NCBI RefSeq assembly: GCF_002752675.1 | Contig: NZ_CP024608.1 | Location: forward strand, 4,774,001 to 4,838,000 | DNA length: 64,000 bases | Source of the DNA: Massilia violaceinigra | GTDB lineage: Bacteria > Pseudomonadota > Gammaproteobacteria > Burkholderiales > Burkholderiaceae_D | Reading direction: 5' to 3' | Shown: positions 2-9,896 of the stretch, piece by piece | How positions within the stretch are numbered: the first letter of the stretch is position 1 | How the letters are laid out: every line of letters starts with the position of its first letter | Notes under the pieces: generated by a model | The model's input: only the letters and a program-made list of their open reading frames with translations | Told to the model about the DNA's origin: nothing | Database searches by the model: none | Translations under genes and position numbers: made by a program

Positions 2-3000
2 GCGGCCGACGGCAACGACAACATCATCGCCGGTGGTGGCGGCAACGTGATCGGCAGTGCCGGCGGCAGCAACAGCATCCTCGCGGGTGGCTTGCTGAAC
101 GTGGTCTACACCGGTGGCGGCAGCAGCAAGATCGGCGCGCTGGGCAATACCAACGCACTGGCAAGCAATGGCGGGTCGAACCTGATGGCGGCGGTCGGCA
201 ATACCAACGTGGTGCTGACTAACGGCGGCAATAACACCGTGCTGGCCGCTGGCATGGGCAACCTGGTGGCCAGCACCGTGGGCGGCAACACGATCGCGGC
301 GGTCGGTGGCGCCAACGTCATCCTGACCGAAGTGGGCGGCATGCTCGATGCCGCCAGCGGCGGCCTGGGCAAGGTGCTGGCCGGCGCGGTGCCGGACAAG
401 ACCATCTCCACGGCGATCAACAGCGCCACCGGCAAGCTGACCGGCGCCATCCAGAGCGGCAGCGGCAAGGATGTGGTGATCGCGGTCGGCGGCACCAACG
501 TGATCTACACCGGTGCCCAGAACGATGTGGTTGCGGCTATCGGCGGCAATAACGTGGTGCTGGCCAACGGCGGCAATAATGTCACCACGGCCATCGGCGC
601 GAACAACCTGGTGATCAATACGGCTGGCAACAACGTGGTCACCACGCTGGGCAACGCGAACGTGGTACTGACCGGCGTGGGCGAAGGCATCACGGATCTG
701 GCCAAAAAGCTGGACAAGGCAACTGCCGGCAGCGCCACCAGCGCGATCTCCAAATTCCTCGGCAATACCCTGGCCAAGGGCGACGGCAACGATATCGTCA
801 CCGCGATCGGCTCGGCCAACGTGGTCTACACCGGCACCGGCAACGACGTGATCACGACCTTGGGTTCGACCAACGTGGTGTGGGCAGGTGCGGGCAACGA
901 CGTGATCACCACGGCTGGCTCGAACAACATCGTGTGGACGGACGGCGGCATCGATGTCGTCACCGCGGCCGGCAACAATAACCTGATCGTGACCGGCAAT
1001 TACGCCGAAGTGGCGGCCACCGCCGTCGGCCTGGTCGATTCGATCGCCGCCGGCGTGGCGGCTATCGATCTGGTCGGCAAGGCTGGCCTGGCCGCTGCGG
1101 CCACCAGCCAGGGCGGCACCGAAGTGGTGACCGTGATGGGCAAGAGCAATGTGGTGGTCGGCGGCAGCAGCGCGACCGTCATTACCGCACTGGGCAGCAA
1201 TAATTTGCTGGCGACCGGCGCCGGTAACGACGTCATCAGCGCGGCGGGCAGCAAGACCGGCATCGTGTCCGGTGCCGGCAACGATGTGGTGACCGCGCTC
1301 GGTTCGTACAACGTGGTCGTGGCGGGCGAGGGCAACAACGTCGTCACCACCGTCGGCAAGGGTAACCTGATCAGCGGCGGCAGCGGCAACGATGTGCTCA
1401 CCGCAATTGCGGTCGGCTCGGCCGGCAGCACCAAATTGAACCTGAACGTGGTGCTCGGCGGCGACGGCAACAATGTCATGACGGTGGTCGGCAAGGACAA
1501 TATCGCGATCAGCGGTGGCGGCAAGGATGTGCTGGTCATGGCAACGTACGGCTCGCAAAAGAAAACGACCGAAAGCGGCGAAGAGGGCTCCGATACCACG
1601 ACCACCAGCACCACCAAGTTCGACACCCAGGCGAACGTGGCGTGGACCGGCGGCGGCGACGATACCGCCCTGGTGTACGGCACCCACAATGTGCTCGTCA
1701 CCGACAGCGGCAACGATACCGTGATCGTGGTCAATGCCGGCAGCAAGCTCGATTACAAGAGCGAAACGACCAACGGCGCCGGCGAAGTCGTGTCGTCGAC
1801 CAAGGTCAACGTCGATACGGGCTTCAATTTCGTGCACACTGGCAGCGGTAACGACAGCTTGATCCTCGCCGGCACCACCACCGTCGGCATGGGCGGCGAA
1901 GGCAATGACCTGATCGTCACCGCTGCGCAAAACAATATCGCCATCGGCGGTGTTGGCAACGACGTCATCATCGGCCTGGCTGAAGCGACGGTGTTCAATG
2001 CCGTTGAAAGCCTGGTCGAGAACGACTACGAAAACGCCGGCGACTGGATCGGCGCCGCCATGAACCACAATTTCGTCTCTTCCCAGATCAAGGCATTGAC
2101 GAGCGGCAATTTGAGCAGTCTCAACCTCGTCGGCAACGTGTTGCTGGGCGGCGAAGGCAACGATACCGTGTTCGCCACCAACGCCGGCACCTACATCAGC
2201 GGCGGCAATGGCGACGACGTGATGATGGGCATGGGTTGGGGCGTCATTACCCAGTTGCTGGGCAAGGATGGCAGCAATCTGAACGGTGCCTGGACAGCGA
2301 TGAGCGGCGGCTTTGCCGACGTCAGCAAGTATGTGGGCGATACCATGCTCAAGGACTTGTCGACCGGCTGGGACCAGATGGGCGCGGGCATCAAGGCCAA
2401 GCTGGCGGCGGCAACGACCAGCGCCGGCAGCCTGGGCACGAGCCTCGACGGCGTGAGCGGCAAGGCGCTCGACGCGGTGTCGAACGTGAGCGGGCTGGAA
2501 CTGAGCGACTTCAGCGTCGCCGGCGGCCTGAAAACCGCGGTCAATGGCGTCTCGAGCGGCGTGAACAGCGCAGTGGCGGGCATCGGTAAGGGCTTCAGCT
2601 ACGTGGCCGACGCCGATGTGTCGGGCGCGCTTGCGGACAGCGCCAGCTTCCTCGGCAGCAAGGTTGCCGCAGGCAGCGAGGCAACCTTCGACGGGCTGGA
2701 GTGGCTGACCGACAAGCTGGGCCTCGACATGAACTTCGGCAATTTCGACGGCGCCGAAGGCCTGGTCAGCGGCTTCCTCGCTTACATGATCGGCTACAAG
2801 TATGCTGGCGACAACGATCTGACTGGCGGCGCAGGCAACGACACCTTGTACAGCGGCATGGGCAACGACGACTTGCGCGGTGGCAGCGGCACCGACACCT
2901 ACGTCATGTCGATGGGCGATGGCGAGGACACGATCTACGAAAGCGCGGGCGGCAACGACATCATCAAGTTCGCGGCCAACAGCATTTTCTCCGGCGTGAC

Positions 3001-3292
3001 GATGGATGCGGCCGGCGTGAAGGCCAATGTCAGCGGCAAGGACCTGGTCATCAATTACGTCAACGACAAGGTCTCGTTCGCGAAAGTGACGATCGCCGAC
3101 TATGCCAGCGTCAACATGAAGGAAGTGCAGTTGATCGACCAGTACGGCAAATTGGTGTCTACTATCAGTATGAATAGCCTGATCGCCGGCGCTGGCGACA
3201 GCGACCCGTACGAGATGACCTCGGTGTGGACCGCCAACCACCTCGATGCCTTCGCCGAGCTGATTCTCGTCGGCACGCAGCAGATGGCATAA
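2..3292 (+). CDS. RTX-like secreted repeat protein (5' end outside window)
   Basis: The reading frame is open from base 2 and the repeat pattern is already running there, so the gene begins upstream and only its last ~1096 residues are seen. Most of the protein is made of ~19-20-residue units of the type GSNNVVxTGxGNDVITTxG, a degenerate form of the calcium-binding RTX nonapeptide. Canonical GGxGxDxx repeats occur only near the C-terminus (2818-2975, for example GGAGNDTLYSGMGNDDLRGG). Non-repeat, Ala/Ser/Lys-rich segments that look helical interrupt the array (around 680-780, 1985-2110 and 2240-2790). RTX proteins usually leave the cell by type I secretion using a C-terminal signal; the last ~70 residues are non-repetitive and could serve that role. 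Substrate, adhesin or surface function is unknown. A terminator follows at 3312. Confidence 0.8.
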   Translation, partial: AADGNDNIIAGGGGNVIGSAGGSNSILAGGLLNVVYTGGGSSKIGALGNTNALASNGGSNLMAAVGNTNVVLTNGGNNTVLAAGMGNLVASTVGGNTIAAVGGANVILTEVGGMLDAASGGLGKVLAGAVPDKTISTAINSATGKLTGAIQSGSGKDVVIAVGGTNVIYTGAQNDVVAAIGGNNVVLANGGNNVTTAIGANNLVINTAGNNVVTTLGNANVVLTGVGEGITDLAKKLDKATAGSATSAISKFLGNTLAKGDGNDIVTAIGSANVVYTGTGNDVITTLGSTNVVWAGAGNDVITTAGSNNIVWTDGGIDVVTAAGNNNLIVTGNYAEVAATAVGLVDSIAAGVAAIDLVGKAGLAAAATSQGGTEVVTVMGKSNVVVGGSSATVITALGSNNLLATGAGNDVISAAGSKTGIVSGAGNDVVTALGSYNVVVAGEGNNVVTTVGKGNLISGGSGNDVLTAIAVGSAGSTKLNLNVVLGGDGNNVMTVVGKDNIAISGGGKDVLVMATYGSQKKTTESGEEGSDTTTTSTTKFDTQANVAWTGGGDDTALVYGTHNVLVTDSGNDTVIVVNAGSKLDYKSETTNGAGEVVSSTKVNVDTGFNFVHTGSGNDSLILAGTTTVGMGGEGNDLIVTAAQNNIAIGGVGNDVIIGLAEATVFNAVESLVENDYENAGDWIGAAMNHNFVSSQIKALTSGNLSSLNLVGNVLLGGEGNDTVFATNAGTYISGGNGDDVMMGMGWGVITQLLGKDGSNLNGAWTAMSGGFADVSKYVGDTMLKDLSTGWDQMGAGIKAKLAAATTSAGSLGTSLDGVSGKALDAVSNVSGLELSDFSVAGGLKTAVNGVSSGVNSAVAGIGKGFSYVADADVSGALADSASFLGSKVAAGSEATFDGLEWLTDKLGLDMNFGNFDGAEGLVSGFLAYMIGYKYAGDNDLTGGAGNDTLYSGMGNDDLRGGSGTDTYVMSMGDGEDTIYESAGGNDIIKFAANSIFSGVTMDAAGVKANVSGKDLVINYVNDKVSFAKVTIADYASVNMKEVQLIDQYGKLVSTISMNSLIAGAGDSDPYEMTSVWTANHLDAFAELILVGTQQMA

Positions 3293-3311
3293 ACCGGTCT
3301 GCTCAGCACAG

Positions 3312-3346
3312 AAAACGCAGCGCGCGCAAGCGGCTGCGTTTTTTTG
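3312..3346 (+). terminator. Rho-independent terminator of the RTX-like gene
   Basis: An 8-bp stem AACGCAGC/GCTGCGTT (3314-3321 with 3333-3340) runs into a T tract at 3339-3345, 20 bases after the stop codon of the repeat protein. Confidence 0.85.
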
Positions 3347-3463
3347 TTGTTGGGCCCGTTGCTGCATGTAGGCAAGACGGAAATATTTCGATCGCCATGG
3401 TAAAATTTCAAGATTGCCAGGGCGATTGGCGCCATCGGCTTCTCCTTTTTTCGGACGCACAAC

Positions 3464-4384
3464 ATGGCGATTTCTGAGAGCACAGTTACCTTTTTCAACA
3501 AGACGGTCACCGAGTACGATGCCGAAGAGCCGGTCGTGTTGTCCGACGATACCGTCTATCGTTTGGCAATCGATTACGACGAAGAGGGCACGATGACGGA
3601 GCTGATCGAAGAGTTCCTCGGCCGCGTCGACAAATCCAAGCTCGACGCGCTGATCATCGGCAAGTGGAGCGATGACTGCGATGAGAGTTCGGAGTCCATC
3701 GTCAGCACCCTGGTTGCCCACGCCGCCGAATTGCCTGCGCTGCGCGCCCTGTTCATTGGCGACATGACGTACGAAGAGTGCGAAATTTCCTGGATCATGC
3801 AGAGCGACGTGACCCCGCTGCTCAACGCGTTTCCGCTGCTGGAAGAATTCCGCGTGCGCGGCGCCAACCAGCTCGAGCTCCAGCCGTTTATCCATGCCAA
3901 CCTGCGCACGTTCGCCATCGAAAGCGGCGGCCTGCCGGCCGAATTGGTCGAAGCCTTGATTGCATCGACCATGCCGGCGCTGACCCATCTGGAGCTGTGG
4001 CTGGGTACCGACGACTATGGTTTCTCGGGCGACGTGGCGCTGTACGAGCGTCTGGTGGCCAAGCTGCGCACCCCGACCCTGGAATACCTGGGTTTGCGCG
4101 ACTCCTACCTCGCCGACGAGCTTGCTGTGTGGCTGGCCGGAGAGGAATTCGTCGCTTGCCTGGAAACGCTCGACCTGTCGCTCGGCACCATCGGCGATGT
4201 CGGGGCCGAAGCCTTGTTCAACAGCCCGTACGTGGCCAAACTGCAAACCCTGGACCTGGAGCACCACTACATTTCCGAAGAATGGCAGGAAAAGCTCAAG
4301 ACCCTGCCGATTACGGTTGACCTGTCCGATCCGCAAGAGATCGAGGACGAGGAAGACGGACGCTACGTCGCTGTCTCCGAGTAA
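3464..4384 (+). CDS. STM4015-family protein (leucine-rich-repeat-like)
   Basis: A 306-residue acidic soluble protein with no signal peptide. From about residue 60 it shows repeated LxxLxL-type segments (ALRALFIGD, LEEFRVRG, LTHLELWLG, LEYLGLRD, LETLDLSLG, LQTLDLEHH), which suggests an irregular leucine-rich-repeat solenoid used for protein binding. It is the first gene of a run of five whose sizes, order and motifs match the STM4015-STM4011 set of Salmonella. I assign the family from this context plus the LRR-like pattern. The role is unknown; a scaffold or substrate-recognition role for the neighbouring enzymes is an inference. Translation starts at the ATG at 3464; the Shine-Dalgarno sequence is weak. 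Confidence 0.75.
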   Translation: MAISESTVTFFNKTVTEYDAEEPVVLSDDTVYRLAIDYDEEGTMTELIEEFLGRVDKSKLDALIIGKWSDDCDESSESIVSTLVAHAAELPALRALFIGDMTYEECEISWIMQSDVTPLLNAFPLLEEFRVRGANQLELQPFIHANLRTFAIESGGLPAELVEALIASTMPALTHLELWLGTDDYGFSGDVALYERLVAKLRTPTLEYLGLRDSYLADELAVWLAGEEFVACLETLDLSLGTIGDVGAEALFNSPYVAKLQTLDLEHHYISEEWQEKLKTLPITVDLSDPQEIEDEEDGRYVAVSE

Positions 4385-4417
4385 GATGCCGCGAGTGAGC
4401 AAAGCCGGTTGCCGCGC

Positions 4418-5593
4418 ATGCTAGACGGTGCCGGCGGCGAGCGCATGCCGGACGGCCAGCCGAACGGCAAGCCGAACGGCGAGCCGAACAGCGAGCCTTT
4501 GGTCTTGTTGGGGGTGCGTCGCGGCAAGCGGGAAAAACTGATGCAGGCAGCACGCCAGGCGCTCGGCCTGCCTGCGGCGGTGGTCGTCGACTGGGCCGAG
4601 TGGCTGGATCAGCCGGCGCTGCTGACAGCCAGCCTGGCCGAGCGGCCTTGCGTATTCAAGATCGACTCGCCGGGTGACGACGCACGCCTTCACGGCATGC
4701 TGATCCGCCAGGGCTGCGAGGCGCTCGGCATCGGCATGTCGCGCTTGCCGGATCGCGGGGAAATTTCCGTCTCCGGCGAATGGTTCGCCGGTTTCACACT
4801 AGCCCTGCAGCGCGTGGCGGCGGAACTGTCGGCGCTGTCCCATGTCAAAGTAATGAACGCGCCGCATGAATTGCTGCTGATGATGGACAAGCTGGCTTGC
4901 CAGCAGCACTTTACTGCGCGCGGCATTCCGATTCCCCGTTTGCTCGGTCCCATCGAAGGTTACGCGCACTTGCGCGCCGTTCTCGATGAGCATCATCTCA
5001 ACCAGGTTTTCCTGAAAACGCGCTACGGATCGAGCGCGTCCGGCGTGGTGGCTTACCGCCGCAACAGCCGTGGGGCCGAGCAGGCCACCAGTTCCGCCGA
5101 CCTCGTGCAAGGGGAGGGCGGGCCGCGTCTCTACAACGTCAAGCGCTTGCGCAGCTACAATGCGCAGCCCGATATTGTGCATTTGATCGACTTGCTGGCG
5201 GGGCAGCAAACCTATGCCGAAGCGTGGATTCCCAAGCCGCGCCACGGCAATGGCCATTACGACGTGCGCGTGGTGACCCTTGGCGGCCAGCCGGCGCACC
5301 GGGTGGCGCGGGTCGGCACGCGCATGATGACCAATCTGCACCTCGACAACCAGCGCGCCGATGTGGCGAGCTTGCTGGGCGAAAAGGATCATGCAGCGTT
5401 GGAACAGACCGCGCGCGCGGCGGCTGCCACTTTTCCGCAAAGTCACGTCATCGGCCTCGATATGGTCGTGCGCAAGGGGCACGCGCATGTGCTCGAAGCG
5501 AACGCCTTCGGCGACCTGCTGCCCAAGCTGCTGTGGCAGGGACACGATACCTATGCCGCCCAGTTGCGAACCTTTTCATCCCATGAAGCCTGA
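4418..5593 (+). CDS. STM4014-family protein, ATP-grasp-like
   Basis: About 391 residues. The core resembles ATP-grasp ligases of the RimK type: a nucleotide-clamp-like stretch VFLKTRYGSSASGVV near residue 205 and a late acidic/Asn metal-site-like segment GLDMVVRK...VLEANAFGDLLP. ATP-grasp enzymes activate a carboxylate with ATP and join it to an amine or thiol; the substrate here is unknown. The first ~28 residues hold a tetrapeptide-like repeat (GQPNGKPNGEPNSEP, 4450-4494), which looks like an appended tail, so the functional start could be lower. The ATG at 4418 is chosen; a TTG at 4409 and an ATG at 4445 are in frame. The 3' end overlaps the next gene by 11 bases, indicating translational coupling. 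Confidence 0.75.
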   Translation: MLDGAGGERMPDGQPNGKPNGEPNSEPLVLLGVRRGKREKLMQAARQALGLPAAVVVDWAEWLDQPALLTASLAERPCVFKIDSPGDDARLHGMLIRQGCEALGIGMSRLPDRGEISVSGEWFAGFTLALQRVAAELSALSHVKVMNAPHELLLMMDKLACQQHFTARGIPIPRLLGPIEGYAHLRAVLDEHHLNQVFLKTRYGSSASGVVAYRRNSRGAEQATSSADLVQGEGGPRLYNVKRLRSYNAQPDIVHLIDLLAGQQTYAEAWIPKPRHGNGHYDVRVVTLGGQPAHRVARVGTRMMTNLHLDNQRADVASLLGEKDHAALEQTARAAAATFPQSHVIGLDMVVRKGHAHVLEANAFGDLLPKLLWQGHDTYAAQLRTFSSHEA

Positions 5594-6416
5594 TCCACGC
5601 TCGATTCCCGACATGAATCAGGTGGTCGGCAGTCACGACATTGTATTCATCACGCTCGATACCCTGCGCTACGACGTGGCCCAGCGCCTGTACGAGGCGG
5701 GCGGGCTGCCGGTCCTCGGGCCTCGCCTGCCGCCCGGCGGCTGGGAGTGCCGGCACAGCCCGGCCAGCTTTACCTACGCGGCCCATCACGCGTTTTTTGC
5801 CGGATTTTTGCCCACGCCCGACCGCCCGGGACGCCATCCGCGCCTGTTCGCGACGGCCTTTCGCGGTAGCGAGACGACCTCGGCCCACACCCACGAGTTT
5901 GCGCAGGAAAGCGTGCCAGCCGGTCTGGCTGGCGCTGGCTACCGCACCATTTGTATCGGCGGAGTAGGCTTTTTCAACAAGGAAACGGCGCTCGGTTGCG
6001 TGTTGCCGGGCATGTTCCAGGAGAGCCACTGGAAGCGCTCGCTCGGCGTGGACAGCCGCAACTCGACCGAGCGCCAGGTGGCGCTGGCGATTGCGCGTTT
6101 GAACGAGCTGGGCCAGCAGCGAGTATTCTTGTTCATCAACGTCGCGGCCATTCATTCGCCGAACCGTGGCTATCTGCCGGGCAGCACCAGCGACACGATC
6201 GAGAGTCACGCCGCGGCGCTGCGCTATGTGGACGGGGCGCTGGCGCCCCTGTTTACCGTCTGTGCTGCGCGCGCGCCCACGTTTGCCATCGTCTGCTCGG
6301 ACCACGGCAGCGCCTACGGCGAAGATGGCTTTCGCGGCCATCGTATCGCCCACGAAACCGTATGGAACGTTCCATACGCCCATTTCTTTATCGATTTTAA
6401 CGGAACGACGCCATGA
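5583..6416 (+). CDS. STM4013-family hydrolase (sulfatase / alkaline-phosphatase fold)
   Basis: A 277-residue protein with hallmarks of the alkaline phosphatase/sulfatase superfamily: an N-terminal metal-binding segment ITLDTLRYD (Asp26), a nucleophile-region segment ASFTYAAHHAFFAGF (Thr64 the candidate nucleophile instead of the Cys/Ser of sulfatases), and a C-terminal metal site CSDHGSAYGEDG followed by a His (GHRIAHETVWNVPY). It has no signal peptide, so it should act in the cytoplasm. The start at 5583 overlaps the STM4014-like gene; an in-frame ATG lies at 5613. It ends in an ATGA overlap with the first radical SAM gene. Hydrolysis of a phosphate or sulfate ester or a related bond is inferred from the fold only. 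Confidence 0.78.
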   Translation: MKPDPRSIPDMNQVVGSHDIVFITLDTLRYDVAQRLYEAGGLPVLGPRLPPGGWECRHSPASFTYAAHHAFFAGFLPTPDRPGRHPRLFATAFRGSETTSAHTHEFAQESVPAGLAGAGYRTICIGGVGFFNKETALGCVLPGMFQESHWKRSLGVDSRNSTERQVALAIARLNELGQQRVFLFINVAAIHSPNRGYLPGSTSDTIESHAAALRYVDGALAPLFTVCAARAPTFAIVCSDHGSAYGEDGFRGHRIAHETVWNVPYAHFFIDFNGTTP

Positions 6417-7792
6417 ACCATCCCGCCACTCCCGGCACGCTCGCCCAGCGCATGCGTCACACGCCGTATCAGGCGTATTCCTATTCCTATCCGCACAAGG
6501 CGGCCTACCGGGCGCTGGCGGTGCCGGCATCGCTGAAGGACCTGTGGGCCGGGCAGGACCGTTCGGCCCTGTTCGCCTACATCCACATCCCGTTCTGCGA
6601 AATGCGCTGCGGTTTCTGTAATTTGTTTGCGATGGCGCGTCCGCAACCGGATATGGTGGAACGTTATGTGGCGCAGGTGGTCCAACAGATGCGCGTGCTC
6701 GACAAGGTGTTGGGTGAGCGCCGGTTTGCGCGTTTTGCGCTCGGTGGCGGCACGCCGACATTTTTGTCGGCGGCGCAGTTGCAAACGCTGCTCGATGGCG
6801 CGCGCGATATTCTGGGCATTGATTTGCAGACCACGCCGGCCGGCATTGAAGCCTCGCCCGAAACCGTGACGCCGGAGCGCATGGCGGTGTGCCGCAGCAT
6901 GGGCATCGACCGTGTCAGCCTCGGCATTCAGAGCTTTGCGGCGGGCGAGATGCGTTCGCTGGCGCGGCCGCAGCAAAACGAGGTGGTGACGCGGGCGATC
7001 GGATATATCCGCGATGCGGGTTTCCCCACGCTCAACCTCGACCTGATTTACGGCATCGGTGGGCAGACGGTGGAGAGCTTGCTGGCGTCCATCGACAGTG
7101 CCCTGGCCTTCAGGCCGGAGGAGTTGTATTTGTATCCCTTGTACGTGCGCCAGCATACGGGGCTGGGCAAGATTGCGAACAGAAAGGGGGCCGCGTCATT
7201 CGATCCGATTGTGCTCAACCAGGAAGGCGACAGCCGCATGCAGCTGTACGAGGCGGCGCGCGATCATTTACGCGCGCGCGGCTACGTGCAGGTGTCGATG
7301 CGCATGTTCCGCGCGCCCCATGCGCCTGACGACACGGGGCCGTCCTACTGCTGCCAGAACGATGGCATGGTGGGCCTCGGTACCGGCGCGCGCTCGTACA
7401 CGCGGGACCTGCATTATTCGACCGATTATGCGGTTGGGCGGGCGGACACGATCGGCATCATCGACAGTTACCTGGCGCTGGACGCCGACAGTTTTACCCA
7501 CGCGCACCACGGCTTTGCGCTGGGGCAAGATGAGCAGCGGCGGCGCTACGTAATCCAGTCACTGCTGACCGATCCGGGGCTCGACCCGGCGGCCTACACG
7601 CAGCGTTTCGGGGGCGATTGCATGCATGACTTGCCGCAGCTGCATGAACTGGGCGAACTGGGCTTGCTGGAAGAGGGCAGTGCCATCTTGCGCCTGAACG
7701 ACCGTGGCTATGGTTATGCCGACACCATCGGCCCGTGGCTGGCGTCGGAAGACGTGCGCCTGCTGATGGCCGACGGCGGCACGACATGCTGA
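6413..7792 (+). CDS. STM4012-family radical SAM protein (HemN-like)
   Basis: A 459-residue radical SAM enzyme. Cys62, Cys66 and Cys69 form the CxxxCxxC iron-sulfur motif (FCEMRCGFC), and the following GGGTPTFL and RVSLGIQSF segments are typical of the HemN/coproporphyrinogen-dehydrogenase-like subgroup. The C-terminal part (from about residue 370) resembles the HemN C-terminal domain. It is not expected to be HemN itself, because it sits in the STM4011-4015 operon. Its ATG overlaps the stop of the hydrolase gene (ATGA), and its 3' end overlaps the next radical SAM gene by 7 bases. Reaction and substrate are unknown. Confidence 0.85.
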   Translation: MNHPATPGTLAQRMRHTPYQAYSYSYPHKAAYRALAVPASLKDLWAGQDRSALFAYIHIPFCEMRCGFCNLFAMARPQPDMVERYVAQVVQQMRVLDKVLGERRFARFALGGGTPTFLSAAQLQTLLDGARDILGIDLQTTPAGIEASPETVTPERMAVCRSMGIDRVSLGIQSFAAGEMRSLARPQQNEVVTRAIGYIRDAGFPTLNLDLIYGIGGQTVESLLASIDSALAFRPEELYLYPLYVRQHTGLGKIANRKGAASFDPIVLNQEGDSRMQLYEAARDHLRARGYVQVSMRMFRAPHAPDDTGPSYCCQNDGMVGLGTGARSYTRDLHYSTDYAVGRADTIGIIDSYLALDADSFTHAHHGFALGQDEQRRRYVIQSLLTDPGLDPAAYTQRFGGDCMHDLPQLHELGELGLLEEGSAILRLNDRGYGYADTIGPWLASEDVRLLMADGGTTC

Positions 7793-8742
7793 CCATGCTG
7801 CCGGCTGCTGCGCTCGATCAGGCGCAGCAGTCCGGACAAACGGCGCGGCAGTCCGGGCAAACGGCGGAGCAGGCGGTACTGTCGCTGCTATACCGCGGCA
7901 CCCTGTCGGGATGCAATTACGATTGCGCGTACTGTCCCTTCGCCAAGCGTCGCGACAGCCGGGCCAAGCTGGCGCGGGACGCCGCCGAGGTGGCGCGCTT
8001 CGTCGCCTGGGTTGGTGCGCAGGAGCGGCCCATCAGCGTGCTGTTCACGCCCTGGGGCGAGGGCATGATCCGGCGCCATTATCGCGATGCGATGACGGCC
8101 CTGTCGGGCATGGCCCATGTGCGCCAGGTGGCGATCCAGACCAATCTGTCCGGACCGCTGGCTTGGCTGGAGCAGGCCGACAAGCGCAAGGTGGGGCTGT
8201 GGTGCACTTACCATCCGAGCCAGGTGCGGATGGATCGCTTTATTGACCGTTGCGAACGTCTGGAGCGGATGGGCGTCCATTTTTCGGTGGGCATCGTGGC
8301 GATGCGCGAGCATTTCGACGATATCCGCGCCTTGCGCGCCGCGCTGCCGCGGCAGCATTATCTCTGGCTCAACGCCTATGACCGGCGCGGGCCGGGTTAC
8401 TATCGGCCGGAGGACCTGGCGTGGCTCGACGCTATGGACCCGTGGTTCAGCTACAGCCGCAATCCCGAGATGTCGCGCGGGAAGGCCTGCCGGGCCGGGT
8501 CGGAAGCGCTGTCGATTGACGGTGATGGGGAAGTGCAGCGATGCCATTTTGTGACCGAGCGGCTGGGCAATCTGTACGAGGATGCGCTGGATAACATGCT
8601 CGTTGAAAAACCGTGCAGCCGCCTGAGGAAATGCGATTGTTATATTGGTTATGCGCACCGGCAGGAGCTGCCGTTTTATGATGACTTCGGCGCTGGCGTG
8701 CTGGCGCGCATTCCAGTGCGGCTGGCGCCCGTGCAGGGGTAA
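7786..8742 (+). CDS. STM4011-family radical SAM protein
   Basis: A 318-residue radical SAM protein. Cys43, Cys47 and Cys50 make the CxxxCxxC motif (CNYDCAYC). A second set of cysteines lies in the C-terminal third (GKACRAGSEALSIDGDG, VQRCHFV, PCSRLRKCDCYIGY), recalling the auxiliary-cluster regions of peptide-modifying radical SAM enzymes with SPASM-like domains. The N-terminus carries a short duplicated peptide (QSGQTARQSGQTAEQ) ahead of the core. The ATG at 7786 overlaps the upstream gene by 7 bases; another ATG lies at 7795. It is the last gene of the operon. With two radical SAM enzymes, an ATP-grasp-like protein and a hydrolase together, modification of a peptide or small molecule is plausible but unproven. 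Confidence 0.83.
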   Translation: MLTMLPAAALDQAQQSGQTARQSGQTAEQAVLSLLYRGTLSGCNYDCAYCPFAKRRDSRAKLARDAAEVARFVAWVGAQERPISVLFTPWGEGMIRRHYRDAMTALSGMAHVRQVAIQTNLSGPLAWLEQADKRKVGLWCTYHPSQVRMDRFIDRCERLERMGVHFSVGIVAMREHFDDIRALRAALPRQHYLWLNAYDRRGPGYYRPEDLAWLDAMDPWFSYSRNPEMSRGKACRAGSEALSIDGDGEVQRCHFVTERLGNLYEDALDNMLVEKPCSRLRKCDCYIGYAHRQELPFYDDFGAGVLARIPVRLAPVQG

Positions 8743-8858
8743 CCGCGACCTTGGAGCGCTGGGGGCTGATGAAGCGATCGTCACGTTTTCCAGAGGCACC
8801 GGCAAAGACCATGCTCGTGGGATGGCCGCCGCGCGGGTGTTACCCAACGATCGGTCTT

Positions 8859-9896
8859 CTATGGAAGAGGATCGGTGCTGGCCATGTTGGAGTGCAGCAT
8901 CGCTTTGATCCGCCGAATATGGATGTTCGATTGCTCCACCCGCTCGACATAGGATGGGCTGGCAGTGCCGTCCGCGCCCATTCGGACGAGCAGATTCTTG
9001 TTCTCTTCGAACATGCGCAGGGCGACCCAAAGGGTTTCCTCCATCTTCGCCGTCTGTTCCGCGAGCAGCGTTGCCGCCGTATAGGCGTGACCGGTATGGC
9101 AACGGAAGCGCAGATGGTTTCCAATCTTCATTTGCCACAACACGCCGCCGCAGCCCGGACAGTTGAACGGCACCTGCGTACCAAGGAACTCGACCGATTC
9201 CAGGTCGCTCAACACGCGCTGGGCGATCTTGGCCTCGACGGCGACATCGTCAGGGACACGGATGCTTGCTCCCCGGTCGTGAAGCGCGAGCCGTGTGAGC
9301 AGGCTACCCATCTCCGCCAGCGGTACGCAGTGATCGACCTTGACATGATTGAGCACGTTTTGCGGCATATCCGGATACGCGGCGTCGGCCGGATCCTGGA
9401 CGACGCAGATTCCGCCGCAGCGCCGGATCACCTCCATGCCCGACGTGCCATCGTCGAGATAGCCGGTGAGGACGACTCCAATGACCCGATTCCCGAATTC
9501 AATGGCGGCGGAACGGAACAGGGGATCGATCGCGGGCCGCGCCCGATTTTCGCGCGCGCCCTTGGTCACCAAGGTTTTGGCTTCCGAGATCATCAGATGA
9601 TGATCCGGCTGCGCCAGATAAATACAGCCGCTCTTGATAACGCCATGCTGCACAGCTTGTTTGCAGGGTAAATTCCCTTTGTCGGCAAGCACGCGCAACA
9701 TGGCATCGTTTGAACCGGTCGCCGCCATGTGATGAACGACGAGAATCGCGGCGGGAAAATCGGCCGGCAGTTGCGCAACGAGAGCGCCCAGCGCACTTTG
9801 TCCGCCGGCGGAGGTGCCGATCACGATGATCGGGAAGTCGCTTCGTTTCGCCGCAGAATCCGCGTTCGCCGCCTTTTTCGTGGATGCCGCCGTCAT
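8859..9896 (-). CDS. CheB-type protein-glutamate methylesterase without receiver domain
   Basis: A 345-residue protein with the CheB methylesterase fold: catalytic Ser in GTSAGGQSAL, His in VVHHMAA, Asp in LTGYLDDGTSGM. The N-terminal response-regulator domain of classical CheB is missing, so phosphorylation would not control it directly. After the esterase (from about residue 220) comes a zinc-ribbon-like segment CPGCGGVLW...RFRCHTGHAY and a helical tail, an arrangement seen in stand-alone CheB homologues. Classical CheB removes methyl groups from chemoreceptors. No cheR or cheA is adjacent. The start at 9896 is preferred because AGGAA lies 4 bases upstream; an in-frame ATG at 9917 would add seven residues. 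It is convergent with the STM4011-like gene. Confidence 0.85.
   Translation of the reverse strand: MTAASTKKAANADSAAKRSDFPIIVIGTSAGGQSALGALVAQLPADFPAAILVVHHMAATGSNDAMLRVLADKGNLPCKQAVQHGVIKSGCIYLAQPDHHLMISEAKTLVTKGARENRARPAIDPLFRSAAIEFGNRVIGVVLTGYLDDGTSGMEVIRRCGGICVVQDPADAAYPDMPQNVLNHVKVDHCVPLAEMGSLLTRLALHDRGASIRVPDDVAVEAKIAQRVLSDLESVEFLGTQVPFNCPGCGGVLWQMKIGNHLRFRCHTGHAYTAATLLAEQTAKMEETLWVALRMFEENKNLLVRMGADGTASPSYVERVEQSNIHIRRIKAMLHSNMASTDPLP

Follow-up and report, generated by a model that had tools for sequence, protein, structure and literature searches.

A leucine-rich-repeat protein ending in a conserved glutamate as a possible biosynthetic carrier of the STM4015-STM4011 cassette of Massilia violaceinigra

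What might be made by a five-gene cassette that carries two radical S-adenosylmethionine (SAM) enzymes and whose members are named only by Salmonella locus tags? The question is posed by a window of 64 kb (64,000 nucleotides) from Massilia violaceinigra (contig NZ_CP024608.1, positions 4,774,001 to 4,838,000), where genes for a leucine-rich-repeat (LRR) protein (STM4015), an ATP-grasp ligase (STM4014), a hydrolase of the alkaline phosphatase superfamily (STM4013), and two radical SAM enzymes (STM4012 and STM4011) lie next to one another on one strand (Table 1). Scanning the longest open frames with the curated models of NCBIfam placed all five proteins above the cut-offs of their own families, with scores far beyond chance, and their order matches that of a Salmonella record. 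This bears out a preliminary description, made from the nucleotide sequence alone, of a complete STM4015-STM4011 operon at 3464..8742 with these gene identities. It likewise upholds the joining of four of the five codirectional genes by overlaps, which measure 11 bases at STM4014/STM4013, 4 at STM4013/STM4012, and 7 at STM4012/STM4011; a gap of 33 bases separates STM4015 from STM4014, for which an alternative start (ATG 4445) is possible. As that description had also held, the tags are the only names in use: in the literature that we searched, two papers list one tag apiece in their tables, and no functional study of STM4011-STM4015 was found there, subscription journals being mostly out of reach. 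The NCBIfam entries (NF038073-NF038076 and NF006067) give names without a function, and the reading as a carrier system set out below is added here.

We lean toward the view that the cassette encodes a carrier-protein pathway, in which STM4015 carries a building block, STM4014 loads it onto the terminal Glu of STM4015, and the other enzymes remodel the cargo. The residue in question first came to light on aligning STM4015 proteins of distant phyla. The last residue is Glu in 110 of 112 STM4015 proteins, the exceptions being those of two loci, L117 and L120; this count omits two repeat reads of the STM4015 gene in the window (L009 and L142) and three weak LRR matches of about 30 bits (L152, L153, and L156; 647-aa frames from two genomes), which likewise end in Glu. 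When the proteins are clustered at 60% identity, all 20 clusters stop in one alignment column, 19 of them with Glu. The same residue closes each of the best 120 of 3286 STM4015 homologues (120/120), as well as 12/12 later proteins (two of L176 and those of L177, L178, L180, and L194-L200), whose genomes may overlap the earlier count. The 80 genome-contig loci in our sample were picked through a motif inside the protein that lies about 190 residues ahead of the tail, though they were ranked by whole-protein score. The partner proteins have no conserved last residue: the commonest end column is shared by 5/34 clusters of STM4014, 1/7 of STM4013, 8/11 of STM4012, and 2/12 of STM4011, so that STM4012 alone has a fairly fixed end and the others are ragged, and terminal Glu is found in 7/104, 2/90, 1/88, and 0/89 of these proteins, respectively. 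Both the Glu codon (GAA 61, GAG 49) and the stop after it (TAA 71, TGA 21, TAG 20) vary; thus, it is the end of the protein that seems to be under selection. The tail follows an acidic linker and across the 20 clusters favors Arg at -7 (17/20), Tyr at -6 (17/20), and Val at -3 (15/20). Its Glu is the best candidate for an attachment point.

The preliminary description had supposed that a peptide or small metabolite is built or modified while the LRR protein holds the substrate, and we take this to be the likeliest reading. It had also reported no precursor peptide nearby. In the stretches searched beside the genes (positions 3280-3470, 4360-4460, and 8700-8960), no more than two frames reach 25 aa, one of 31 and one of 25 aa, and nothing suggestive was seen; however, the LRR protein itself is probably the precursor that was missed. 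The tail might, alternatively, be the core (RYVAVxE) of a ribosomally synthesized and post-translationally modified peptide (RiPP), altered by the radical SAM enzymes and then cut off, with the LRR domain as a giant leader. In the accessible part of a graspetide survey (PMC8939145), SPASM radical SAM enzymes often accompany ATP-grasp ligases in RiPP clusters, and the ATP-grasp enzyme PsnB appears in our Foldseek list. Yet only the terminal Glu is near-invariant over the 20 clusters, the variation at the other tail positions being unlike a core with fixed cross-link residues, and the cassette has no peptidase; we hold a RiPP to be highly unlikely.

The ligase provides the second line of evidence for a carrier. 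The eight best structural neighbors of a predicted STM4014 model (predicted local distance difference test [pLDDT], 90.1) are all ArgX, LysX, or RimK entries, three of them solved with a carrier or target protein (3vpb, 5k2m, and 5zk6), and the family profile and LysX have D-x-R-V...R-x-S-x3-ITN in common. STM4014 is accordingly modeled with the same fold as these ligases. As described in the available text of PMC10433800, LysX attaches its substrate to LysW through the gamma-carboxyl of the Glu at the carrier's C terminus, and acidic residues of such carriers are contacted by enzymes (excerpt of PMC9303977). The cassette resembles the LysW/amino-group carriers with LysX/ArgX of the lysine, arginine, and vazabitide pathways in having a terminal Glu after an acidic stretch and an ATP-grasp ligase of matching fold. 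In contrast, LysW is a 54-residue zinc protein, whereas STM4015 is a 306-aa LRR platform on which attachment is only proposed, and the radical SAM and phosphohydrolase enzymes belong to the cassette. The definition of LysW-type carriers includes, in the same portion of PMC10433800, an EDWGE motif and zinc-binding Cys residues, neither of which was found in STM4015, with its LRR fold and tails of the kind RYVAVGE and RYPSLTE. Hence, STM4015 does not qualify as a carrier of the LysW type, although it may work like one.

A second comparison is with pearlins such as TglA and TmoA, in which, according to the part of PMC9303977 available, the C terminus of a ribosomal carrier is where chemistry takes place, TmoD contributing a radical SAM step. 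Both features recall our proposal. The pearlin loader, however, is a tRNA-using PEARL, whereas the loader proposed here is an ATP-grasp enzyme and the carrier a folded LRR protein, and domain scans found no PEARL domain in the five cassette proteins. An STM4015-type structure already exists in the form of 2RA8 (Q64V53_BACFR of Bacteroides fragilis; structural genomics, 2007), which is titled without a function and has a longer chain than STM4015 (362 residues).

The proposed pathway may be envisaged as follows. STM4015 would be a protein carrier consisting of the LRR platform, the acidic linker, and the conserved tail ending in Glu. STM4014 would activate a carboxylate (gamma or alpha) of this Glu and join the amine of the building block to it. 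The tethered building block would be remodeled by the radical SAM enzymes, the HemN/NocN-like STM4012 and the SPASM protein STM4011, while STM4013, along with a HAD phosphatase in several lineages, would act on a phosphate or related ester group, removing or transferring it. What we observed is which genes are present, how they are ordered and linked, the tail and its constancy, that the ligase matches in fold, that HAD phosphatases are recruited, and that the Glu has been lost once in nature, in a draft genome where no ligase gene was detected; from this we infer the bond, the sequence of steps, and the cargo. Loading by STM4014 would account for the precise point at which the protein ends, for the acidic linker and the fold of the ligase, as well as for multiple carriers per cassette and the loss of Glu in one orphan (see below). 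In its fullest form the proposal is more tentative: a building block amide-linked to the C-terminal Glu by the ATP-grasp enzyme might be converted into an amino-acid-like product through the action of the two radical SAM enzymes and the phosphohydrolase, in a system carried to at least five phyla by gene transfer. STM4015 would then be, to our knowledge, the first LRR protein to serve as a covalent biosynthetic carrier.

Several observations weigh against the carrier. The tail of STM4015 is predicted to be fairly ordered (pLDDT 85), which such a role leaves unexplained, and domain scans found no release enzyme among the five proteins. For STM4014, the structural rows just after ArgX, LysX, and RimK are nearly tied with them. 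Its nearest relative is left undecided by sequence: against solved structures, the matches are RimK at 2e-5, biotin carboxylase at 2.3e-5, and LysX at 1.8e-4 with a 7-member profile, and D-Ala ligase at 1e-4 and RimK at 0.006 with a 21-member one, so that the comparison of predicted structure decides the matter only modestly. Some of these points would suit a different arrangement, in which the modified LRR protein is itself the end product, as a sensor or adaptor: STM4014 would extend or cap the Glu in the manner of RimK, the radical SAM enzymes would decorate it, and nothing would be released. RimK, in the part of PMC7343187 available, adds glutamates to the C terminus of ribosomal protein S6 (RpsF), sharing with the cassette an ATP-grasp fold and a protein C terminus as target, and five of the eight best structural matches of STM4014 are RimK. 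On the other hand, the proposed target here is an LRR protein encoded by a neighboring gene, there are the extra radical SAM enzymes, and STM4014 misses the RimK-family cut-off (TIGR00768; 22.3 versus 143.4 bits). Simple tagging would not call for a pair of radical SAM enzymes plus one or two phosphohydrolases, and a cassette that serves several paralogous carriers agrees at least equally well with a carrier role; we regard an end-product role as unlikely. LRR folds usually bind proteins, and this habit, together with the partial order of the tail, could also point to an LRR adaptor that holds the enzymes by means of a docking peptide while they act on a free metabolite, with no bond to STM4015. 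Such an adaptor seems quite improbable, since one would not expect docking to require that a free C-terminal Glu sit at the exact end, which is common to 20/20 clusters, and since it leaves the likeness of the ligase to enzymes acting on protein C termini unexplained.

Natural variants speak to the proposed loading of STM4015 by STM4014. In the draft genome G643 (locus L120), an intact orphan STM4015 has the tail RYPAVTV, its terminal Glu lost, and no match to STM4013 or STM4014 was found in this genome, a metagenome bin from which genes may be absent and in which a single-base error is possible. By comparison, genome G876, with STM4015, STM4014, and STM4013 dispersed, retains the Glu. We count both cases in favor of a carrier. 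The other exception (L117) is trivial because the tail disappeared when STM4015 was truncated into the remains of STM4014, in a genome without STM4013 and with STM4014 pieces below the cut-off. Extra STM4015 copies outside the cassette, three in Embleya and one in S. cadmiisoli, all keep the tail (4/4) and have the cassette on the same records. The fusion of STM4014 and STM4013 in Embleya is also counted in favor of a carrier. A Calothrix protein (L045) keeps the Glu but is known from a plasmid record alone and is hence uninformative. G876 further encodes an STM4015 with an N-terminal WGR domain (L195) away from the cassette genes, with STM4014 and STM4013 on other contigs.

Against solved sequences, the first radical SAM enzyme, STM4012, matches HemN (1olt; E 5.6e-53) and the methyltransferase NocN (9p2u; E 4.4e-32), and it also matches HemN_C. 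A heme-related pathway, with a HemN/HemW/HutW-like STM4012 and accessory proteins, draws on the first and last of these matches. However, STM4012 stays below the cut-offs of HemW (143.1/205.4 bits), HemN (140.9/325), and HutW (136.6/400), its other strong solved relative is a methyltransferase, and the cassette has no other heme gene; we thus reject STM4012 as a heme enzyme and find a heme pathway barely credible. The concern voiced in the preliminary description, that the radical SAM proteins might be closer to HemN, does not apply, as STM4012 scores 561.8 bits with its own model versus 143.1 with HemW. STM4011 has, beyond its CxxxCxxC, five further Cys toward the C terminus that are invariant in seven sequences; it passes SPASM (PF13186; 22.8 bits, cut-off 21.5), and its only solved relative under E 0.001 is SkfB, the sporulation killing factor maturation protein.

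STM4013 has a Thr, invariant in seven sequences, aligned over the Thr of NPP-type phosphodiesterases that we take to be their nucleophile. Formylglycine-type sulfatases have Cys or Ser at that position, within C/S-x-P-x-R, and the invariant Thr in its place led us to reject STM4013 as such a sulfatase. A HAD phosphatase is a recurring companion: six loci (three from Undibacterium and one each from Chitinophagaceae, Niastella, and Rhodocyclaceae) have it between STM4014 and STM4013; in Salmonella it comes after STM4011, and in one Deinococcus it lies near STM4011. Pfam shows it as a fusion with STM4011 in L043 and L194, and length points to the same in L129; in a rearranged cluster (L180) it is the first gene. 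Its repeated recruitment suggests that phosphate is handled in the pathway. No HAD protein of these kinds was found beside the cassette in the window or in the Paenibacillus loci. A DUF6745 protein and a protein of about 100 aa flank the cassette in seven loci (three Deinococcus, two Streptomyces, Methylobacterium, and Nonomuraea), the smaller one with conserved GE(V/L)TGH(S/A)H and HxEH motifs (HEEH in 5/6 aligned) and a C-terminal Asp (6/6). This pair was found in 0/80 genome-contig loci, and models of all these extra partners (HAD, DUF6745, and the ~100-aa protein) had no match in the 64-kb window; the pair is therefore a lineage partner and not core. The search for a sixth conserved small gene, proposed along with the preliminary description, thus came out in part: a sixth partner recurs in some lineages, but it is a HAD phosphatase and not a small precursor, or elsewhere the DUF6745 pair.

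Relatives of STM4013 also occur apart from the cassette. The Ti plasmid pTi-SAKURA and nine further Agrobacterium records encode an STM4013-like hydrolase of 25% identity, which in pTi-SAKURA adjoins a GTP-cyclohydrolase-II-like gene in a context unlike the cassette. Plasmids of S. albidoflavus and Kitasatospora have relatives without the cassette that are followed by a NUDIX-like gene, in Kitasatospora with a CxxxCxxC-bearing frame upstream; another pathway possibly uses the same hydrolase there.

As to whether the five genes belong together, 96 loci (L039-L134) were fetched through STM4015 or STM4013 matches: 80 on genome contigs, from a scan started with a profile of 12 STM4015 proteins (A1), 15 on plasmid records, and 1 on an IMG/VR contig. 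This sample is redundant, since Paenibacillus and close kin make up 71 of the 96 loci (70 of the 80 on genome contigs). The co-occurrence that the preliminary description proposed to check was found, with all five genes in the same order in 82/96 loci, four more having a tandem second STM4015 and one (Embleya) carrying STM4014 and STM4013 as a single fused frame. The remaining nine comprise two cut by contig ends, one internal deletion, three with a lone STM4015 in the stretch examined, and three with a lone STM4013 relative, one of which scores under the 150-bit threshold used. The deletion, in a Bacteroides finegoldii plasmid (L043), removed most of STM4013 and STM4012 and left STM4015, STM4014, and the STM4011-HAD fusion. 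Elsewhere, one genome of the G442 phylum sample has the rearranged order HAD-4013-4012-4011-4015-4014, and in G876, from the G643 phylum sample, STM4015, STM4014, and STM4013 lie on three separate contigs; thus, the set is kept together there even where the order is broken.

The cassette is patchy, horizontally transferred, and has moved between phyla, at least five of which possess it. STM4013 exceeds its cut-off in 1/299 genomes of the own-phylum sample, namely the window's own, and STM4015 does so in 15/145 genomes of the own-family sample, 8/398 of the G643 phylum sample, and 1/198 of the G442 phylum sample, with one more slightly below. In a tree built from 21 loci with four proteins concatenated, Massilia groups with Actinomycetota, Methylobacterium, and Deinococcus (support 0.97), apart from Undibacterium, though both are Oxalobacteraceae. 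The window STM4013 is 59% identical to a Streptomyces copy versus 37% to that of Salmonella; its STM4015 is 96% identical to a protein of Massilia sp. CCM 9210. Copies lie on plasmid-labeled records of Paenibacillus, Deinococcus, Methylobacterium, Streptomyces, and Salmonella, along with a decayed one of Bacteroides, the Salmonella record also bearing chromosome-type genes such as typA and glnA. The earlier surmise of a mobile or ancient cassette is supported. A viral origin was rejected: a single IMG/VR contig (L129) was found among 40 motif matches, and it looks like a Bacteroidales fragment because its STM4015 begins much like that of the Bacteroides copy L043 and the STM4011 proteins of the two are of about equal length. 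A viral fold search with STM4015 returned LRR and uncharacterized proteins of large viruses. An anti-phage defense system was likewise rejected, PADLOC having given one weak partial match (STM4012 to PDC-M51A; 25.2 bits, ~100 residues). Upstream, the cassette is flanked by an RTX-repeat protein and downstream, on the opposite strand, by what we take to be a CheB-like protein.

Table 1. Positions of the cassette genes, their motifs, and related features (window coordinates unless a locus is named)
Feature	Position	Strand	Details
STM4015 family LRR protein, proposed carrier/scaffold	3464..4384	+	306 aa; NF038076 333.5 bits, cut-off 275
Acidic, variable-length linker of STM4015, residues 286-299	4319..4360	+	45% Asp/Glu at -20 to -8 (20 cluster representatives) vs 17% protein-wide
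C-terminal tail RYVAVSE of STM4015, residues 300-306	4361..4381	+	Glu306 = proposed attachment residue; last-residue Glu 110/112
STM4014 family ATP-grasp ligase, proposed loader	4418..5593	+	391 aa; NF038074 334.9 bits, cut-off 175
STM4013 family alkaline-phosphatase-superfamily hydrolase	5583..6416	+	277 aa; Thr at nucleophile position; NF038075 393.4 bits, cut-off 250
STM4012 family HemN-like radical SAM enzyme	6413..7792	+	459 aa; NF006067 561.8 bits, cut-off 380
CxxxCxxC of STM4012	6596..6619	+	Cys62, 66, 69; invariant in alignment A5 (6 sequences)
STM4011 family radical SAM protein	7786..8742	+	318 aa; SPASM-like C-terminal cysteines; NF038073 373.2 bits, cut-off 200
CxxxCxxC of STM4011	7912..7935	+	Cys43, 47, 50; invariant in alignment A4 (7 sequences)
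RTX-repeat protein (HemolysinCabind)	47-3292		1081 aa; upstream flank; ends 171 bases ahead of cassette
DUF6745 and ~100-aa neighbors	L040 11030-12327; L046 3183-4647; L047 4501-5826; L130, L132, L133, L134
STM4013-like hydrolase, pTi-SAKURA	L044 8118-9454
STM4013 relative, S. albidoflavus plasmid	L042 7768-9339
STM4013 relative, Kitasatospora plasmid	L048 5855-9274
Internal deletion, B. finegoldii plasmid	L043 9832-10195

More generally, at least five phyla possess this transferable cassette, with its two radical SAM enzymes, and no role had been assigned to it in the literature that we searched. The hypothesis of a terminal-Glu carrier narrows the question of its function to whether STM4014 loads STM4015 and names the residue concerned, and it supplies a functional hypothesis for 2RA8, a structure released without one in 2007. 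If it is true, a folded LRR protein would join the short list of ribosomal carriers used in the building of metabolites.

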